DNA of 64,000 nucleotides from Polynucleobacter tropicus (GTDB taxonomy: Bacteria; Pseudomonadota; Gammaproteobacteria; Burkholderiales; Burkholderiaceae), in assembly GCF_013307225.1 (NCBI RefSeq), contig NZ_CP028942.1, positions 1,550,001 to 1,614,000 on the forward strand, in the 5' to 3' direction. Within the stretch, counting starts at the first letter, position 1; each line of letters starts with the position of its first letter. Positions 15,465 to 34,552 of the stretch are shown here, one piece after another. The notes under the pieces were generated by a model that had not been told where the DNA came from, did no database searches, and saw nothing but the letters and a program-made list of their open reading frames with translations. Made by a program: the position numbers and the translations under genes.

Positions 15465-16061
15465 TCAGTCATCATCAGGCTCCTCATACTCTTTTGGCAA
15501 GTGGTGCGCAATACCTTTATGACAATCAATACATGTTTTGCCAGCCTCTTTAGCCTTCATGTGCTTCTTGTAAGGCGTTTGCTTCTGCAGCTCTGGGCTC
15601 ATTGCATCAAAGTCATGGCAATTACGGCACTCACGAGAGTTACTCTCCTTCATGCGCTTCCATTCATGACCAGCCAGTTCCATACGCTTAGCTTCAAACT
15701 TCTCAGGCGTATCAATTGAGCCAGTGATTTTTCCCCAAACCTCAAAGCTAGCTTTGGATTTGCGAATCATCTTGTGTACCCAGTCCTTAGGTACGTGGCA
15801 ATCAGAACAAATTGCTCGAACGCCAGAACGATTGCTGTAGTGAATAGTCTCTTTGTACTCTTGATATACCGTATCACGCATCTCATGACAGGTTGTACAG
15901 AAAGCCAAAGTATTTGTCGCCTCCATCCCGGTATTGAAAGCACCCCAAAACAAGATGCCAGCAATAAATCCCGTTACAGAAATTGCCAGTATCGAATACT
16001 TTGCACTGGGTTTTTTCAGGAAAGCCCACAGCTTCTTTAATGCCCCTGGTTCTCTATTCAT
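15465..16061 (-). CDS. NapC/NirT-family tetraheme cytochrome c (CymA / MtoC-like quinol-linked)
   Basis: About 198 residues. One N-terminal membrane helix (about 23-42) anchors a periplasmic domain with exactly four CxxCH motifs, at about residues 55 (CTTCH), 85 (CSDCH), 145 (CRNCH) and 177 (CIDCH). This is the CymA/NapC/NirT layout, which exchanges electrons between the quinone pool and periplasmic cytochromes. ATG 16061 has GGAGAA ahead at good spacing; the frame could extend to 16082. It follows the outer-membrane porin gene by 27 bases. In an Mto-type system it would pass electrons from outside into the quinone pool; direction is inference from context. Confidence 0.93.
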   Translation of the reverse strand: MNREPGALKKLWAFLKKPSAKYSILAISVTGFIAGILFWGAFNTGMEATNTLAFCTTCHEMRDTVYQEYKETIHYSNRSGVRAICSDCHVPKDWVHKMIRKSKASFEVWGKITGSIDTPEKFEAKRMELAGHEWKRMKESNSRECRNCHDFDAMSPELQKQTPYKKHMKAKEAGKTCIDCHKGIAHHLPKEYEEPDDD

Positions 16062-16088
16062 AAATATTCTCCGATAAGGCATTAAAGG

Positions 16089-18455
16089 TTAATCAAAGGT
16101 GTAGGTGTAGTTAACCATCACAGCATTAACAGCATAGCTTGGCGCAGTCTGATTGGTGGGCATAATTCCTGATACGCCTCCTGAACTAACGCTATATGCG
16201 TTATAAAAATAATCGCTGCTATATAAACGCTGATACCAATATTGCATTCCTAGTTTGGAATTTTTATCTAGTTGGTAATTACCGCCTAGCTTTAATATCG
16301 CTAAATTATTTTGAATTCCAGGTGCGCTTCCACAATATCCAGCATTTGCAGTTGCACAAACTCCTGGCGTAGATGTTGTGTTGTAAATTGAATTAGCAAG
16401 AGATAAAGTAGCATCCGCATTTAATGTTACCTTGCCATTTAGCAGTCCACCCTGCTTAAGACCCAAGCCTATAGTGGTAGCGTTGGTTTGTAGCTGATTA
16501 AAATATACGCCAACAGTTGATTGATCGCTCAATACCCGCTGCATACTCTGCTGAGTAACGTAAGCGTTTATGGTTCCAGCCTCGGCATAAGCGTATGTGC
16601 TATCTAAATTTAAACTCCAAGAATAGCCATTCTGAACACCATACACTGAATTAGGATAAGTATCGCTGGTATATTTTCCACCAAGGGTAAAAGATAGTTG
16701 CTCTGTTGTTTGCCAATCTACGCTACCTTTACCCGAATACTGTCTGCGAGAAGCCTCAAAAAATGGATAAAACCCAGGATAATTAATGTTCCAATTTGAT
16801 GGACTTGAATTTCCGCTAATAGCCATCATTGAATTGGTATTATCCCAAGTGGTTTGCCGGTTGCTATAGCCCGCACCCAATTTAACATTAACTCCATCGA
16901 CCACTTTAACCTTATAAAGTGCATTCGCACTATTTTGCACACTGGCATTCGCTGGCATACAGCCTGAACTATTGTAAAAAGTTGATCCGGTTGCGATGGT
17001 TGCAGATGAATAGTATGTTGCAGGCGTCTGACCAGGTGTGCCGTACTGATTACACCAACGGTTAACATTAGAATTCTCAAGTGTAAGACTTACCCTCTGG
17101 GCATTAGTAATACGATAATCCGCCCCCAACAATATTTGCGCCTGCTTAATACTCTCTGGTGTATTGGGAATATTGGACATGTGAGGAGTATTTCGTGTAC
17201 TAGAAGTGCCATCTACCGCAAAAAAGTTATACATATTAGATTGCGTTAAATTATCACGCTGATCAAATTTTCCAGCCGCAGTTAAAGTTAAATCCTTAAC
17301 AGATTGATCGGTAACCTTTAAGTCTGCATGGGTTGTGTTAACAACCCCATTTAAAGATCCATAAGGCGCAGCTTGTGCCATCATCCCGTTATTGGCGCTA
17401 CTGGTCGTAACGCCGGGATCATAACTTCCCGAAAATCCTTGATTTTGCGTATTTTGACTAATTGAGAAATTTCCAGTCAATTTAGTTTTTGAGGAAAAAT
17501 CGTAACCACCAGCTAAATTCAGCTGATTTAAAAAATTGCTAGGGGCCGTGCTTATTGTTTGAATTGGATTGCCATTTCCGGAGCCAGATGTAGCGCCAGT
17601 AGTATTAAAGGCTTGCCACTGAAATCCTTTATAGCCATTTTCAAAATATGAGCCAAAATATGAGGCTGTAAAGTGTGAATTATCACCTTTCCAGTTTGCC
17701 GCCAAATTAAATGTATTCGTTTGATAGTTCGTCGGCATTGGCAAAATTGCAATTGTCTGGGAGGTACCAGCATTCCCCCCAGCCGCAACCGCTCCAGCAA
17801 CAGCCTGCAACTTTGCACCTGTTTGCACTAAATTATTAAATTCAAAAGAAATGTTAAAGTCTTTATCTATTATTTTGCTTGCAGATAGGCTAGTGTTATA
17901 TCTAGTGCTCGATACGCCCATGTTACTTAAATCACCAATCACAGTCGAAGACGTCGCTGGATTGGTACCTGTCGAAGCTCCACCAGTCAAATTACTTGGC
18001 AATACATAATAATTCCCACCCATCGAACCACGATATGGCGTATTGTATGTATTGCTAATATTGTGTTGCAACTGATCAAAGCCAACGCCAACACTCCAAT
18101 TCCCCTGATCCTCATATGACGCACTAGCTGAACGGGAGGTCAAACCTAAGTTATCGCCAACAACCGACCAGCGAGTAGTATCACCACTCTCGTTATTTTT
18201 ATAAGCACCTCCACCACGAATGTTCAAAGCACCATTCGGATAAATTCCAGAGGGATTTCCATAGAGGCCGTTGTATTCACCAAATTTTGCAGAATTTTGA
18301 TCAACACCAATTACCTCAACTTGAACGGTACTTTTGGGCTGTGTCAAATCCCTAATCTCATCCGAGTCCGCTATTGCAGTATTGGTGAAAAAGACTGTCG
18401 TAACTGCCATTGCAATAGCAGTTTTTTTGAAACTAAATATTTTTGCATTTTTCAT
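16089..18455 (-). CDS. mtoB: MtrB/PioB/MtoB-family outer-membrane beta-barrel porin
   Basis: 788 residues. A signal peptide (cleavage near residue 29, NTAIA) precedes a long barrel of alternating strands with aromatic girdles and Gly/Asn/Ser-rich loops, ending NYTYTFD. It lies directly downstream of the decaheme gene, as in all known MtrAB, PioAB and MtoAB pairs, where the barrel sheathes the decaheme cytochrome through the outer membrane. Its length is nearer PioB than Shewanella MtrB (about 700). The N-terminal CxxC pair seen in gammaproteobacterial MtrB is absent; the only Cys occur in later loops. Family call is strong from architecture and context. Confidence 0.9.
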   Translation of the reverse strand: MKNAKIFSFKKTAIAMAVTTVFFTNTAIADSDEIRDLTQPKSTVQVEVIGVDQNSAKFGEYNGLYGNPSGIYPNGALNIRGGGAYKNNESGDTTRWSVVGDNLGLTSRSASASYEDQGNWSVGVGFDQLQHNISNTYNTPYRGSMGGNYYVLPSNLTGGASTGTNPATSSTVIGDLSNMGVSSTRYNTSLSASKIIDKDFNISFEFNNLVQTGAKLQAVAGAVAAGGNAGTSQTIAILPMPTNYQTNTFNLAANWKGDNSHFTASYFGSYFENGYKGFQWQAFNTTGATSGSGNGNPIQTISTAPSNFLNQLNLAGGYDFSSKTKLTGNFSISQNTQNQGFSGSYDPGVTTSSANNGMMAQAAPYGSLNGVVNTTHADLKVTDQSVKDLTLTAAGKFDQRDNLTQSNMYNFFAVDGTSSTRNTPHMSNIPNTPESIKQAQILLGADYRITNAQRVSLTLENSNVNRWCNQYGTPGQTPATYYSSATIATGSTFYNSSGCMPANASVQNSANALYKVKVVDGVNVKLGAGYSNRQTTWDNTNSMMAISGNSSPSNWNINYPGFYPFFEASRRQYSGKGSVDWQTTEQLSFTLGGKYTSDTYPNSVYGVQNGYSWSLNLDSTYAYAEAGTINAYVTQQSMQRVLSDQSTVGVYFNQLQTNATTIGLGLKQGGLLNGKVTLNADATLSLANSIYNTTSTPGVCATANAGYCGSAPGIQNNLAILKLGGNYQLDKNSKLGMQYWYQRLYSSDYFYNAYSVSSGGVSGIMPTNQTAPSYAVNAVMVNYTYTFD

Positions 18456-18486
18456 TTCATGCTCTCTGAATTAATTTCATTAAATA

Positions 18487-19458
18487 TCAACGCTGCAAAT
18501 ATCCGCCGGCTGGGCTATTGGAGCCATGCACCATCGTGTGGCAGTTCATACAAGCACGCCCCATCAAACTAGAACTTGGAGATGTAGTAAATGGCTTGCC
18601 GGCAACATTGGGGCCAGGCAACTTACCACTATCATGCGGCTTATCATGACAGTCGTCACACAAGAATGGAGGACGATCTTTTAATAGCGGTGTGATATTT
18701 GAACCATGCGGGGTGTGGCAATTTGCGCAGTTCTCCACCACAGGCTGATGCTCGAACAATACTGGACCGCGTTTCTCTGCATGGCAAAGGAAGCAGGTTT
18801 CATTGAGCGTATTTTTCTTGAGCAGTTGTGGACCTGCAGAACCGTGTGGGTTATGACAATCAGAGCAAACTACTTTTCCAACCTCAATTGGGTGAGTAGA
18901 TGTTTTATAACTATCTGCACGCTGCTCTTTGTGGCAGGTGTAGCAAACTTGAGTTTGGGTTTTCTTGACACGTACTTTGTCAACTGGATTGTGGACAACG
19001 TGACAATCATTGCAAGCAACGTCATTTACTTGGTGCTGCGAACCATTCCAGTTAGTGCGCTTTTCACCTTTGTGGCAATTCTGACACTGACCCATGCGCT
19101 CTTGACTTGGGCTCTTATCGTAAACACCCTTCTTAAATACAAAATCAGGTGATGGGCGACCTTTGCCATCCTTATCACCGGCCAAGTGTTTATCACTTTG
19201 GCCATGGCAGGAAGTACAAGATGGTGTTCTGGAATCACCTTTTACACCGTGCTTAGTTTGATAGATAGAAAGGATTGGAGCATTTTCACTCTCATCGTGG
19301 CACTTGGTGCACTTGGCATCTTCTTTAAAAGCGGCCTTTGCAACATCTGCTTTGGTAGGAGTTAAATCTGGCAGATTATTTTGTGCAAATGCAAAGGGTG
19401 CCACACCAATGGCACCCAACACCGCGCTAATTACTAGAAGTTTTTTGAAGATCTTCAT
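18487..19458 (-). CDS. mtoA: Decaheme c-type cytochrome, MtrA/MtoA/PioA family
   Basis: About 323 residues with a signal peptide (to about residue 25). Ten CxxCH motifs begin at about residues 50, 81, 125, 149, 172, 198, 222, 244, 267 and 303: CTKCH, CTSCH, CQNCH, CNDCH, CYTCH, CSDCH, CFLCH, CANCH, CDDCH and CMNCH. Ten hemes in about 300 mature residues matches MtrA/MtoA; the long N-terminal extension of PioA is missing. It should form the heme wire inside the MtoB barrel. Two ATGs are close; the second (19458) has GAGGA at proper spacing, so I use it. No MtrC/OmcA-type surface cytochrome is nearby, which favours the electron-uptake (Mto/Pio) type. Confidence 0.95.
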   Translation of the reverse strand: MKIFKKLLVISAVLGAIGVAPFAFAQNNLPDLTPTKADVAKAAFKEDAKCTKCHDESENAPILSIYQTKHGVKGDSRTPSCTSCHGQSDKHLAGDKDGKGRPSPDFVFKKGVYDKSPSQERMGQCQNCHKGEKRTNWNGSQHQVNDVACNDCHVVHNPVDKVRVKKTQTQVCYTCHKEQRADSYKTSTHPIEVGKVVCSDCHNPHGSAGPQLLKKNTLNETCFLCHAEKRGPVLFEHQPVVENCANCHTPHGSNITPLLKDRPPFLCDDCHDKPHDSGKLPGPNVAGKPFTTSPSSSLMGRACMNCHTMVHGSNSPAGGYLQR

Positions 19459-19527
19459 TTGCATTCCTCGTGACTACGATTTCGAGTTTTTATTTCTATT
19501 TCTTTTTTTAATTTCAGCTTTTAATTC

Positions 19528-19884
19528 TTACTGAGCCAAAATCCACTGCACCAAGTTCTTCACTTGATCCATATCTTTTGGTGGGGAGGTTTTTACAACC
19601 TTGTGCTCTTCTTCATGACCATCTGGGAACTTTGCTTTTTCACCAGAAGTTAAATGGTTCACTAATTTCGCTTCAGCATTTGGTTTGCCTTTGTATTTTT
19701 CGGCAACACTGTGATATGAAGGACCATCTTTATCTTTATCAATAGCGTGGCACTTGAAACAATTATTTTGTTTGGCCAATGCTTTAGCAGCTTCTGCATC
19801 TGGTGCAGCGCTTGCTACTGATGAGAATGCCAAGGCTGCAAAACCGATAACTGCAGCACTGAAGATTTGTTTAGCTTGTGTCAT
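19528..19884 (-). CDS. mtoD: Periplasmic monoheme class I cytochrome c (MtoD-like)
   Basis: 118 residues. A signal peptide (to about residue 26, SVASA) is followed by one heme site, NNCFKCHAID at 42-46, and the class I C-terminal helix KNLVQWILAQ. The usual Met-Pro-Pro ligand loop reads KTSPPKDM here: Ser replaces Met before PP, leaving Met105 or His90/His94 as possible sixth ligands. It is the first gene of the operon, matching the mtoD-mtoA-mtoB-cymA order of Fe(II)-oxidising betaproteobacteria. The likely role is a soluble shuttle between the outer-membrane MtoAB conduit and inner-membrane or oxidase partners. AAGGAG precedes the ATG but can be paired in a leader hairpin. Confidence 0.85.
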   Translation of the reverse strand: MTQAKQIFSAAVIGFAALAFSSVASAAPDAEAAKALAKQNNCFKCHAIDKDKDGPSYHSVAEKYKGKPNAEAKLVNHLTSGEKAKFPDGHEEEHKVVKTSPPKDMDQVKNLVQWILAQ

Positions 19885-19886
19885 TT

Positions 19887-19942
19887 AATTCTCCTTGTGG
19901 GTGCCTTGGAAATACCCAAGACACAATTACTTAAGGAGAATT
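19887..19942 (-). promoter_or_regulatory. Structured mtoD leader that can sequester the ribosome binding site
   Basis: AATTCTCCTT (minus strand, 19942-19933) is exactly complementary to AAGGAGAATT (19896-19887), which contains the mtoD ribosome binding site. Inside the 36-base loop, TTGTG/CACAA and CTTGG/CCAAG can stack as further stems. The message could therefore fold with its AAGGAG buried. This is visible in the bases; regulation by temperature, an sRNA, a protein or translation coupling is inference. Confidence 0.55.
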
Positions 19943-19964
19943 CTATTTTTTAGGCTAGTTATTA

Positions 19965-20018
19965 GATATAGGATTGCTTAGGTAAATATCCATAGGAATA
20001 TTCCTATAGGAGATAGGA
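19965..20018 (-). promoter_or_regulatory. Candidate operator and promoter of the mtoDAB-cymA operon
   Basis: ATAGGAATATTCCTAT at 19992-20007 is a perfect 16-bp palindrome. ATAGGA also occurs at 19968, 20006 and 20013 on the plus strand. On the minus strand a -10-like TATATC lies at 19965-19970, predicting a start near 19958. The palindrome would then be centred at about -41.5, an activator position. The adjacent NarL-type regulator (20028-20672) is the obvious candidate to bind it. Confidence 0.55.
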
Positions 20019-20027
20019 CTAATCTGC

Positions 20028-20672
20028 TTATTTATCTAAATCTAACAATTTATGCTCAATGGCATACCGAATGAGGTCTGCCTGATTGGAAAGTCCAAGC
20101 TTTGAAAGAATGTGGGTTTTGTGGGTGCTAATTGTCTTAATGCTCAAGGAAAACTCGTCTGCAATATCAGTCAGACTTACCCCCTTCACAATGCGAACCA
20201 GAACCTCGTGTTCACGATCTGAGAGTGCACTATGAAGATGGTTATTGGCACCAGGCGCTACATCTGTAGCTAATAGTTCAGCTACTTTTTGACTAATAAA
20301 CATACCTCCAGTAGCAACCTTTCGTATCGCAGGAACGAAATGATCACTGTCCTCTTCTTTTGAAAGGTAACCTGATGCGCCGGCGCGAATTGCTCTCACC
20401 GCATATTGCTCTTCAGGGTGCATACTGAAAATCAATATGGGTAATTTGGGGCTTTCAGCTTTAATAAGCTTAATAAGCTCAATGCCATTTCTGCCGGGCA
20501 TAGATAAATCCAATACCACCATACTCCAGTCGCGCTCACGGACTCTCTCTAAGACTTGATTACCGTTAGCAGCCTCGCCAGCAACAACAAGATCATCCGT
20601 ATCGGCCAAAATTTTTCTAAGGCCATCCCGAATAATTGCGTGGTCATCTGCTACCAACACCTCAAGCTTCAT
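20028..20672 (-). CDS. NarL/FixJ-family response regulator
   Basis: 214 residues. The receiver domain (about 1-120) has the acidic pair in VADDH, phospho-acceptor Asp55 in VVLDLSMPG, and Lys105 in GYLSKEE. A LuxR-type helix-turn-helix (about 148-205) reads LSDREHEVLVRIVKGVSLTD and KTISTHKTHILSKLGLSNQA. It should be phosphorylated by the kinase encoded immediately upstream (four-base overlap) and bind DNA as a dimer. Its stop is 143 bases before mtoD, and a 16-bp palindrome lies in that gap, so control of the cytochrome operon is the simplest reading. The signal is unknown. Confidence 0.93.
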   Translation of the reverse strand: MKLEVLVADDHAIIRDGLRKILADTDDLVVAGEAANGNQVLERVRERDWSMVVLDLSMPGRNGIELIKLIKAESPKLPILIFSMHPEEQYAVRAIRAGASGYLSKEEDSDHFVPAIRKVATGGMFISQKVAELLATDVAPGANNHLHSALSDREHEVLVRIVKGVSLTDIADEFSLSIKTISTHKTHILSKLGLSNQADLIRYAIEHKLLDLDK

Positions 20673-22699
20673 GCATTAACCTCAGAAAAGATTGGGGAAT
20701 CCAAGTCAAACTCAACCCGAATGACAACTCCAGACAGTCTACCATTTGCCATGGTGAACTTAGCACCCAATGCATTCGCTCGCTCGCGCATGCTAACTAA
20801 TCCAAATCCGCCAGACTGCATTTCCGCTGGCAAACCAATGCCATTATCAGAAATTGTTAGAGTTAAATAATGCTCATCTTTGTCTAAAGTAATTTGCACT
20901 AAAGTTGCCTGTGCATGTCGAGCAATATTGGTTAATGATTCCTGCACAATTCTGAAAAGTGCAGTTGCCAATTCAGAATTGCTCACACATACTTCCGCAT
21001 TCAAATTCAGCTCTACAGGCACATGAGTACGTTTTGTAAATTCGCCTATAAGCCATTTAACCGCCTCGGCAAATCCGAGATCATCCAATATGATGGGGCG
21101 TAATTCAGTGGAGATTCTGCGCACCGAAGCAATTGCCCCATCAAGCTGCTGCTTCATTTCTAAAATGCGATCTTCCGGAGGTAAACGCCCCTCTTTAATA
21201 CGGCCATTAAGCCAAGTTAATTCCAACTTTAAGCCCGTCAGCTGCTGACCCAAATCATCATGCAACTCTCTTGCGATACGCGCCCTTTCCTCTTCGCGAA
21301 TATTCTCTAAAGCTTCAGATAACCCCCTCAATTGACGGTTCATTTCGCGCAATTCAATTTCCGACTTACGTCTTTCAGTTACATCCCGCAGCACCGCAGT
21401 TAATTGCTTTTTGCCATTAATGATCGTTTGAGAAATAGTCGACTCAATTGGAAACTCGACACCATCAGAACGAAGCCCAACAATACCGAGCTGAGGGCCC
21501 ATGGCCCGAGATCCCACTTCTGAACTGCCAAATTTTTTCACATGAGAATGATGGGCATCACGAAATCGTTCAGGCAATAACATCGCCAATGGTTGCCCCA
21601 GCACATCCTTAGCCTCCAAACCAAACATACGCTCTGCCGAGGGGTTAAATAAAATGATATTTTTATCCTCATCAACTGCAATAATCGCATCCATTACTGA
21701 CTCAATGGTATGTCGATATCGATCATGAACCATACCCAATTCGTCGGCCAACTTTTGTTGACGCATTGCTTCACGAATCAGCAATCCGGCGGCCACTATG
21801 ATAAAAAGACTGACCAAAGTTGAACTCATGACGATAGGAATGGCAGTCTCACGCCAAGAAGCCAAAGCCTCTTCCTCATCATTAGTCACTGCAATGAATA
21901 ATGGAAACTTGGGTACGGCACCTAAAACTAAATCCTCGTTTTCTCCGATATTTTTTAGGTGTGGCAAAAACAGTAATTTTCCATAATCCAACCTGGGCAA
22001 TTCCAAACCCAACTCAGGACCTCTTTCACCGATCATATTGTCTCGATGCGGAAAGCTTGCAAGCAAAATACCATCATCCCTATATAGGGATACTGGACGC
22101 GGATAATCCAGCTTCATCAGTTTGTATACATCCTCAAAATGCGCGATATCGATGGTGGCAACAATCAGCCCTCTAAACACACCATCTTCACTGATAATTT
22201 TTCTTGCCAAATATATAATCCATGACTTTGTTTGTGCATCATGAATGGGCTTACTAATAAAAAGATTTTTACCTCCTTGGCTTAAGAAGGTCTTGTAGTA
22301 CTCATGGCTACCAACATCAATCCTTTTCTTAGGTTGCTCAACCGATGAATTAATTACATAGCCATTTGGGTCAATTAAGAATAGGGAATCCATTTGGCGC
22401 ATACCCAAAACTCTGGTAGCTAGTAGTAAATGGATTTCAAAACTATCCAATGACAATTGCGCAGCATAAGGAGCGGCTAAACGATTTTGCACGCCCCGCA
22501 ATACCAAGTCTGCACTTTCAAAACTACGCTCGGTCTGCTCAACAAAAATTTTGGTAATGCCCACCGTCTCTGCGCGAGTATGAGCAAGTTCACGCTTACG
22601 TAAATCCCAAAGCAAAAAGGTCGTGGACAAAGCCACTATAACAATAGTTACAGTGGCAAAAAAGCCAATGGGGTAGGCTGGGCGCCCATGAAAATTCAT
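20669..22699 (-). CDS. Membrane sensor histidine kinase with periplasmic Cache-like and PAS domains
   Basis: 676 residues. Membrane helices at about 11-30 and 286-308 flank a periplasmic domain of about 255 residues resembling double Cache sensors (IIYLARKIISEDGVFRGLIV, ASFPHRDNMIG). A PAS domain follows (about 325-445, SVMDAIIAVDEDKNIILFNP), then the NarX/DesK-type dimerisation region with His480 in ARELHDDLGQQL. The ATPase domain has Asn591 (QESLTNIARHA) and DNGIGLP near 618. The partner is the regulator overlapping its stop. The periplasmic sensor faces the compartment of the Mto cytochromes. An FNR-type box lies 28 bases upstream of the start. No heme-binding or redox motif is obvious in the sensor domain. 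Confidence 0.92.
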   Translation of the reverse strand: MNFHGRPAYPIGFFATVTIVIVALSTTFLLWDLRKRELAHTRAETVGITKIFVEQTERSFESADLVLRGVQNRLAAPYAAQLSLDSFEIHLLLATRVLGMRQMDSLFLIDPNGYVINSSVEQPKKRIDVGSHEYYKTFLSQGGKNLFISKPIHDAQTKSWIIYLARKIISEDGVFRGLIVATIDIAHFEDVYKLMKLDYPRPVSLYRDDGILLASFPHRDNMIGERGPELGLELPRLDYGKLLFLPHLKNIGENEDLVLGAVPKFPLFIAVTNDEEEALASWRETAIPIVMSSTLVSLFIIVAAGLLIREAMRQQKLADELGMVHDRYRHTIESVMDAIIAVDEDKNIILFNPSAERMFGLEAKDVLGQPLAMLLPERFRDAHHSHVKKFGSSEVGSRAMGPQLGIVGLRSDGVEFPIESTISQTIINGKKQLTAVLRDVTERRKSEIELREMNRQLRGLSEALENIREEERARIARELHDDLGQQLTGLKLELTWLNGRIKEGRLPPEDRILEMKQQLDGAIASVRRISTELRPIILDDLGFAEAVKWLIGEFTKRTHVPVELNLNAEVCVSNSELATALFRIVQESLTNIARHAQATLVQITLDKDEHYLTLTISDNGIGLPAEMQSGGFGLVSMRERANALGAKFTMANGRLSGVVIRVEFDLDSPIFSEVNA

Positions 22700-34480: not shown

Positions 34481-34496
34481 TAAGGGTTGGGCAAAT

Positions 34497-34527
34497 AAAA
34501 ATCCCCAGAGTAATTTCTGGGGATTTT
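34497..34527. terminator. Bidirectional terminator after ahpF
   Basis: A 13-bp stem, AAAAATCCCCAGA with TCTGGGGATTTTT, around a 5-base loop. T-rich tracts occur on both strands, so it can stop ahpF and the converging DUF3833 gene. Confidence 0.9.
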
Positions 34528-34552
34528 TATTTTTTACATTGAAATGTAACTA

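Follow-up and report, generated by a model that had tools for sequence, protein, structure and literature searches.

A possible promoter-embedded anti-Shine-Dalgarno strand upstream of mtoD in Polynucleobacter tropicus and other Burkholderiales

We propose that the promoter of the mto electron-uptake operon carries an embedded anti-Shine-Dalgarno strand, so that RNA reading through from upstream would fold shut while the mRNA of the operon's own promoter would be translated. We give this reading a probability of about 0.5. The computed results behind it are the fold, a conserved promoter, covariation between one arm of the fold and the Shine-Dalgarno (SD) sequence, and covariation within an inner hairpin. 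Slightly less probable in our estimate is its general form, in which the mto operon of Burkholderiales would be read-through-proof through such a strand, would be expressed strictly from a two-component-activated start, and would have its strand kept SD-complementary by compensatory evolution in promoter DNA.

The mto locus

The window, that is, the whole stretch of 64,000 nt analysed here, comprises positions 1,550,001-1,614,000 of contig NZ_CP028942.1 of Polynucleobacter tropicus (assembly GCF_013307225.1). An upstream operon on its minus strand encodes a sensor histidine kinase (20669-22699; dCache, PAS, HisKA_3 and HATPase_c by Pfam/NCBIfam) and a LuxR/NarL-type response regulator (20028-20672; Pfam and synteny), the gene of the latter being located co-directionally and directly upstream of mtoD. 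On the same strand, mtoD (19528-19884, ATG at 19884) encodes a monohaem cytochrome c of 118 aa whose best solved match, 4XXL (E 4e-42), is the MtoD of Sideroxydans (PMC4412085). The next gene (18487-19464, minus strand) encodes an mtoA-like decahaem cytochrome of the DmsE family (NCBIfam TIGR03508), and the order after mtoD is mtoA-, mtoB- and NapC/CymA-like genes. In most of the MtoD loci fetched, mtoD is likewise flanked by this regulator gene on its upstream side and by a decahaem gene on the other. Only ~21 bp separate the stop codon of the regulator gene from the operator described below, and a search of the sequence from the kinase-regulator operon up to mtoD revealed no minus-strand terminator. 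With so short a gap and no terminator, read-through from the kinase-regulator operon would enter mtoD. The MtoD literature searched mentions no promoter, and a literature search returned nothing on mto promoters or on mtoD of Polynucleobacter.

A conserved operator and promoter upstream of mtoD

We fetched 80 MtoD loci and used a conserved palindrome as the anchor for aligning 47 non-redundant upstream regions. In these 47 Burkholderiales loci, conserved blocks recur at fixed spacing: TAGGA-N4-TCCTA is followed 23 bp on by TTTCATC-N5-CC[G/T]ATA, then by a spacer of ~21 bases that is constant in length but poorly conserved in sequence, and then by NANAAT. In the window, the first block is represented by the palindrome TAGGAATATTCCTA (operator site 1; 19993-20006, minus strand), a predicted regulator site conserved at fixed spacing. 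It is centred near position -67 relative to the predicted start; in most other lineages the centre lies near -65. The exact sequence occurs once in the genome, at this site only. Operator site 2 (19967-19985, minus strand) is imperfect, lies 23-24 bp downstream of site 1 near -42 and ends in CCTATA, corresponding to the conserved block TTTCATC-N5-CC[G/T]ATA of other lineages and overlapping the -35 zone. The adjacent LuxR-type response regulator likely binds this two-site operator, which mto promoters across Burkholderiales have in common. The location of CC[G/T]ATA in the -35 zone fits an activator-dependent promoter, and we infer that the mto promoter is activated by the two-component regulator. 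The other perfect match to TAGGANNNTTCCTA (TAGGAAGATTCCTA; L122, genome position about 1780646) lies in a chaperonin (groEL-like)-looking region and is probably not a target of the regulator.

In the -10 box of bacterial sigma-70 promoters, conservation is highest for A at position 2 and T at position 6. At a fixed offset from the operator, both are present in 48/48 loci, with the runner-up offset scoring roughly half as high. The corresponding -10 box in the window is TAGAAT (19940-19945, minus strand). Counting a discriminator of the usual 7 nt from it places the predicted transcription start at the A at 19932 (minus strand; +/- 1-2 nt). An alternative assignment of CCTATA as the -10 box, with a start 11 nt later, was rejected: the A2/T6 pattern is missing from CC[G/T]ATA, and 27 nt further on A.AAT is present in every lineage. 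When SD accessibility was computed over all homologues with the leader length given by this rejected start, the signal was weak.

Folding of the segment upstream of mtoD

The first-pass annotation had described a perfect 10-bp inverted repeat with AAGGAG in its 3' arm, and this is exact. The arms AATTCTCCTT (19942-19933) and AAGGAGAATT (19896-19887) lie 36 nt apart on the minus strand, the 3' arm holding the mtoD SD, AAGGAG. The 5' arm, whose complementarity to the SD arm is seen in the sequence and in its covariation with the SD across 28 lineages, is made up of the final three bases of the -10 box (19945-19940) together with the discriminator, the promoter itself being a prediction. It would thus be absent from RNA initiated at the predicted mto promoter.

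An 81-nt segment folds with -25.3 kcal/mol (z = -4.41), and none of 200 shuffled sequences was equally stable. Inverted repeats of 10 bp begin at 24 start positions in the window versus 6.2 in shuffles, many of them terminator-like, so that such a repeat is by itself no rarity here; only two distinct repeats in the window reach the SD zone of an ORF of at least 80 aa. A long perfect inverted repeat with a 17-bp stem at 34493-34532 is likewise terminator-like. The fold is kept in seven other leaders of the Polynucleobacter clade and in a ninth, more divergent leader (L061), in which a U-A pair of the outer stem is changed to C-G in a compensatory manner. Taken singly, only 7/44 leaders surpassed their shuffles at p 0.05. 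An alternative pairing of UUGUGUC/GACACAA involving mtoD codons 1-4 was rejected, as it occurs in the window only.

The predicted mRNA and its inner hairpin

The mRNA of the predicted mto promoter has a 48-nt leader consisting of 8 nt, an inner hairpin and then an open SD. In computed folds, the SD is unpaired with a probability of 0.72 in this primary mRNA versus 0.06 in the longer, read-through RNA. The earlier proposal that the mtoD leader folds to hide its SD is therefore borne out in part: the segment can adopt this fold and the fold is conserved, but the 5' arm lies outside the transcript of the predicted promoter, in which the SD is open.

The nested stem reported by the annotation is present and stronger than noted, with 10 pairs, GUGUCUUGGG-UAUU-UCCAAGGCAC (19901-19924, minus strand). 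Evidence for this hairpin comes from folding, shuffles, chimera tests and pair counts in Comamonadaceae. A hairpin close to the 5' end is general in the leaders of other lineages as well: leader hairpin energy across 48 loci gave a mean z of -1.57, compared to -0.36 and -0.11 for coding controls. Exchanging hairpin halves between species made the hairpin weaker: in Polynucleobacter, 58/362,880 permutations matched the native set; across 44 loci, the native mean was -10.4 versus -7.8 for the best of 20,000 permutations, both statistics being calculated without regard to the relatedness of the loci. In a Comamonadaceae group, every pair of the inner hairpin is retained, and two double changes are seen. 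Covariation supports this hairpin, which is larger in a divergent relative (L040 / L061).

The predicted mRNA 5' end and the hairpin are 8 nt apart in the window and a median of 3 nt apart in the 48 loci, although the distance in shuffles is similar (mean 4.6) and position alone is weak evidence. Counted from the predicted starts, it falls within the ~10 nt of the 5' end expected of a 5'-terminal stabilising stem-loop. Such stem-loops, located a few nt from the mRNA 5' end in ompA and papA, hinder RppH and RNase E (PMC3997798). The mto hairpin resembles them in its 5'-end position, its distance resting on predicted starts, and by this analogy its simplest function is probably that of a 5' mRNA stabiliser of the ompA/papA kind.

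Covariation between the promoter arm and the SD

For 28 lineages, grouped by similarity and partly split by hand, we slid an 11-nt segment along the upstream region and compared its pairing energy with the SD of its own lineage to that with the SDs of other lineages. A clear peak was obtained only at +33..+43, from the discriminator to the start (p = 1.25e-4; scan-corrected p 0.0056). The worst leave-one-out p was 0.0014, and removal of Polynucleobacter left a p of about 0.001. With 22 automatic groups, p was 0.005-0.009 for the main test windows and 0.04-0.06 without Polynucleobacter. In lineage permutations, the transcribed stretch just past the predicted start displayed no excess of SD pairing and, if anything, less than permuted sequences. 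Lineages with differing SDs possess matching arms: CTCCTT/AAGGAG, CCCC/GGGG (L129), GACCC/GGGTC (L090), CTTCAC/GTGAAG (L080) and TTCACCTC/GAGGTGAA (L069). A matching arm is absent in several lineages (L054, L107, L087 and L059). The relation of complementarity to an upstream co-directional regulator gene was unstable, with p ranging from 0.008 to 0.26 depending on the test window chosen.

The compensatory changes in homologous leaders that the first-pass annotation had proposed to look for thus occur, both in L061 and across the 28 lineages. By the 28-lineage permutation, the SD-hiding helix is maintained in a compensatory manner, as would be expected of T4 gene e-type control. Evolution appears to have preserved the match between arm and SD even though the arm, as predicted, is left out of the transcript of its own promoter. 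Covariation across lineages makes a function of the SD-hiding pairing probable, and the simplest one would be to act on read-through RNA. The mto promoter, activated by the regulator, would start just downstream of the 5' arm and leave the SD free in the mRNA. RNA entering from the kinase-regulator operon would carry both arms, form the long hairpin and bury the SD. Leaky read-through would then not be translated into MtoD, and the gene would stay silent until its own promoter fires. Both the existence of the read-through and the translational block are parts of the model that we infer.

Alternative explanations

The sequences of arm and SD might match by chance. The arm would then be a -10 box followed by a pyrimidine-rich discriminator, complementary to a purine-rich SD by accident and inherited functionless within Polynucleobacter, the inner hairpin alone being functional as a 5' stabiliser. 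This is in keeping with the -10 signature found at every locus and with the small number of leaders that individually surpass their shuffles. Moreover, the SD-pairing part of the arm varies within Polynucleobacter in 5/7 columns versus 1/6 in the -10 box, and L061 is the one clear compensatory case. Against such an origin stands the cross-lineage covariation, which peaks exactly at the discriminator and is not seen when other offsets in these sequences are taken, and we regard a chance match as rather unlikely.

The stable fold, its conservation in the Polynucleobacter clade and the arm/SD covariation would be expected if the promoter were located further upstream and the whole hairpin were part of an mtoD leader that is opened by a ligand, an sRNA, a protein or temperature. 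A switch by an sRNA, a metabolite, temperature or a protein had been suggested by the annotation, and we obtained no evidence for it. This explanation leaves the invariant A/T signature at a fixed distance from the operator unaccounted for, and the conserved A.AAT bases are mostly unpaired outside Polynucleobacter. The annotation had recognised no known riboswitch class, in agreement with an Rfam scan of the window in which nothing reached the gathering score. Across lineages there is no conserved loop or aptamer-like core; the segment matches no described riboswitch class, and strong conservation downstream of the operators is confined to the -10 box. An RNA thermometer of the ROSE or fourU type is likewise disfavoured by the lack of an Rfam match, by 10 perfect pairs at -25 kcal/mol and by a 5' strand that lies outside the predicted mRNA. 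Overall, a leader switch seems improbable. Still less credible, to the point of being very improbable, is a role of the inverted repeat at the DNA level, for instance as a second regulator site over the -10 box and the SD. A perfect 10-bp repeat with one arm in the promoter would suit such a site, but the arm spacing varies between lineages, the sequence changes along with the SD, and G-U pairs are tolerated.

Comparison with known systems

An anti-SD strand embedded in the promoter has close parallels in phage T4. Long upstream transcripts of gene e (lysozyme), soc, gene 49 and I-TevI are closed, while transcripts from close promoters lack the 5' strand and are translated; in gene e, the stretch that codes for the 5' strand of the SD-hiding helix also contains the late promoters (PMC3014915). 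As in gene e, the proximal mto promoter, as predicted here, overlaps the 5' strand of the SD-hiding helix. The T4 cases involve phage late promoters and timing, whereas in mto the promoter would belong to a cellular electron-uptake operon and be activated by a two-component system; mto also has an extra inner hairpin and is a computational prediction. In IS10 and IS50, an inverted repeat in read-through RNA closes over the start of the transposase gene, and transcription from the promoter of the element itself begins within the repeat. These are ends of mobile elements, in contrast to the chromosomal metabolic operon mto. Riboswitches and RNA thermometers share the sequestration of the SD, but mto has no Rfam match, no ligand core and a sequestering strand located outside the predicted mRNA.

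If the proposal is correct, a cellular operon for multihaem electron uptake would be guarded by an insulation device in the style of phages and transposons, and the promoter bases that separate the -10 box from the start could be under selection for RNA pairing. SD-hiding hairpins derived from folding need to be checked against the start site. For mto operons, the analysis also yields a concrete operator of the regulator and a start site, both predicted.

Distribution of the hairpin

A covariance model of the whole hairpin matched only mtoD leaders, in 9/186 genomes of the genus, and in a family sample of 398 it matched the window's own genome alone. The whole hairpin was therefore rejected as a dispersed RNA family, its matches being confined to mtoD leaders. 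The mto cluster itself (15465-19884) is patchy in the genus, as seen from the same leader matches, which suggests loss or transfer. In most Polynucleobacter carriers, mtoD codons 1-6 (19884-19867, ATGACACAAGCTAAACAA) are near-invariant at the DNA level, and the remaining signal peptide is variable.
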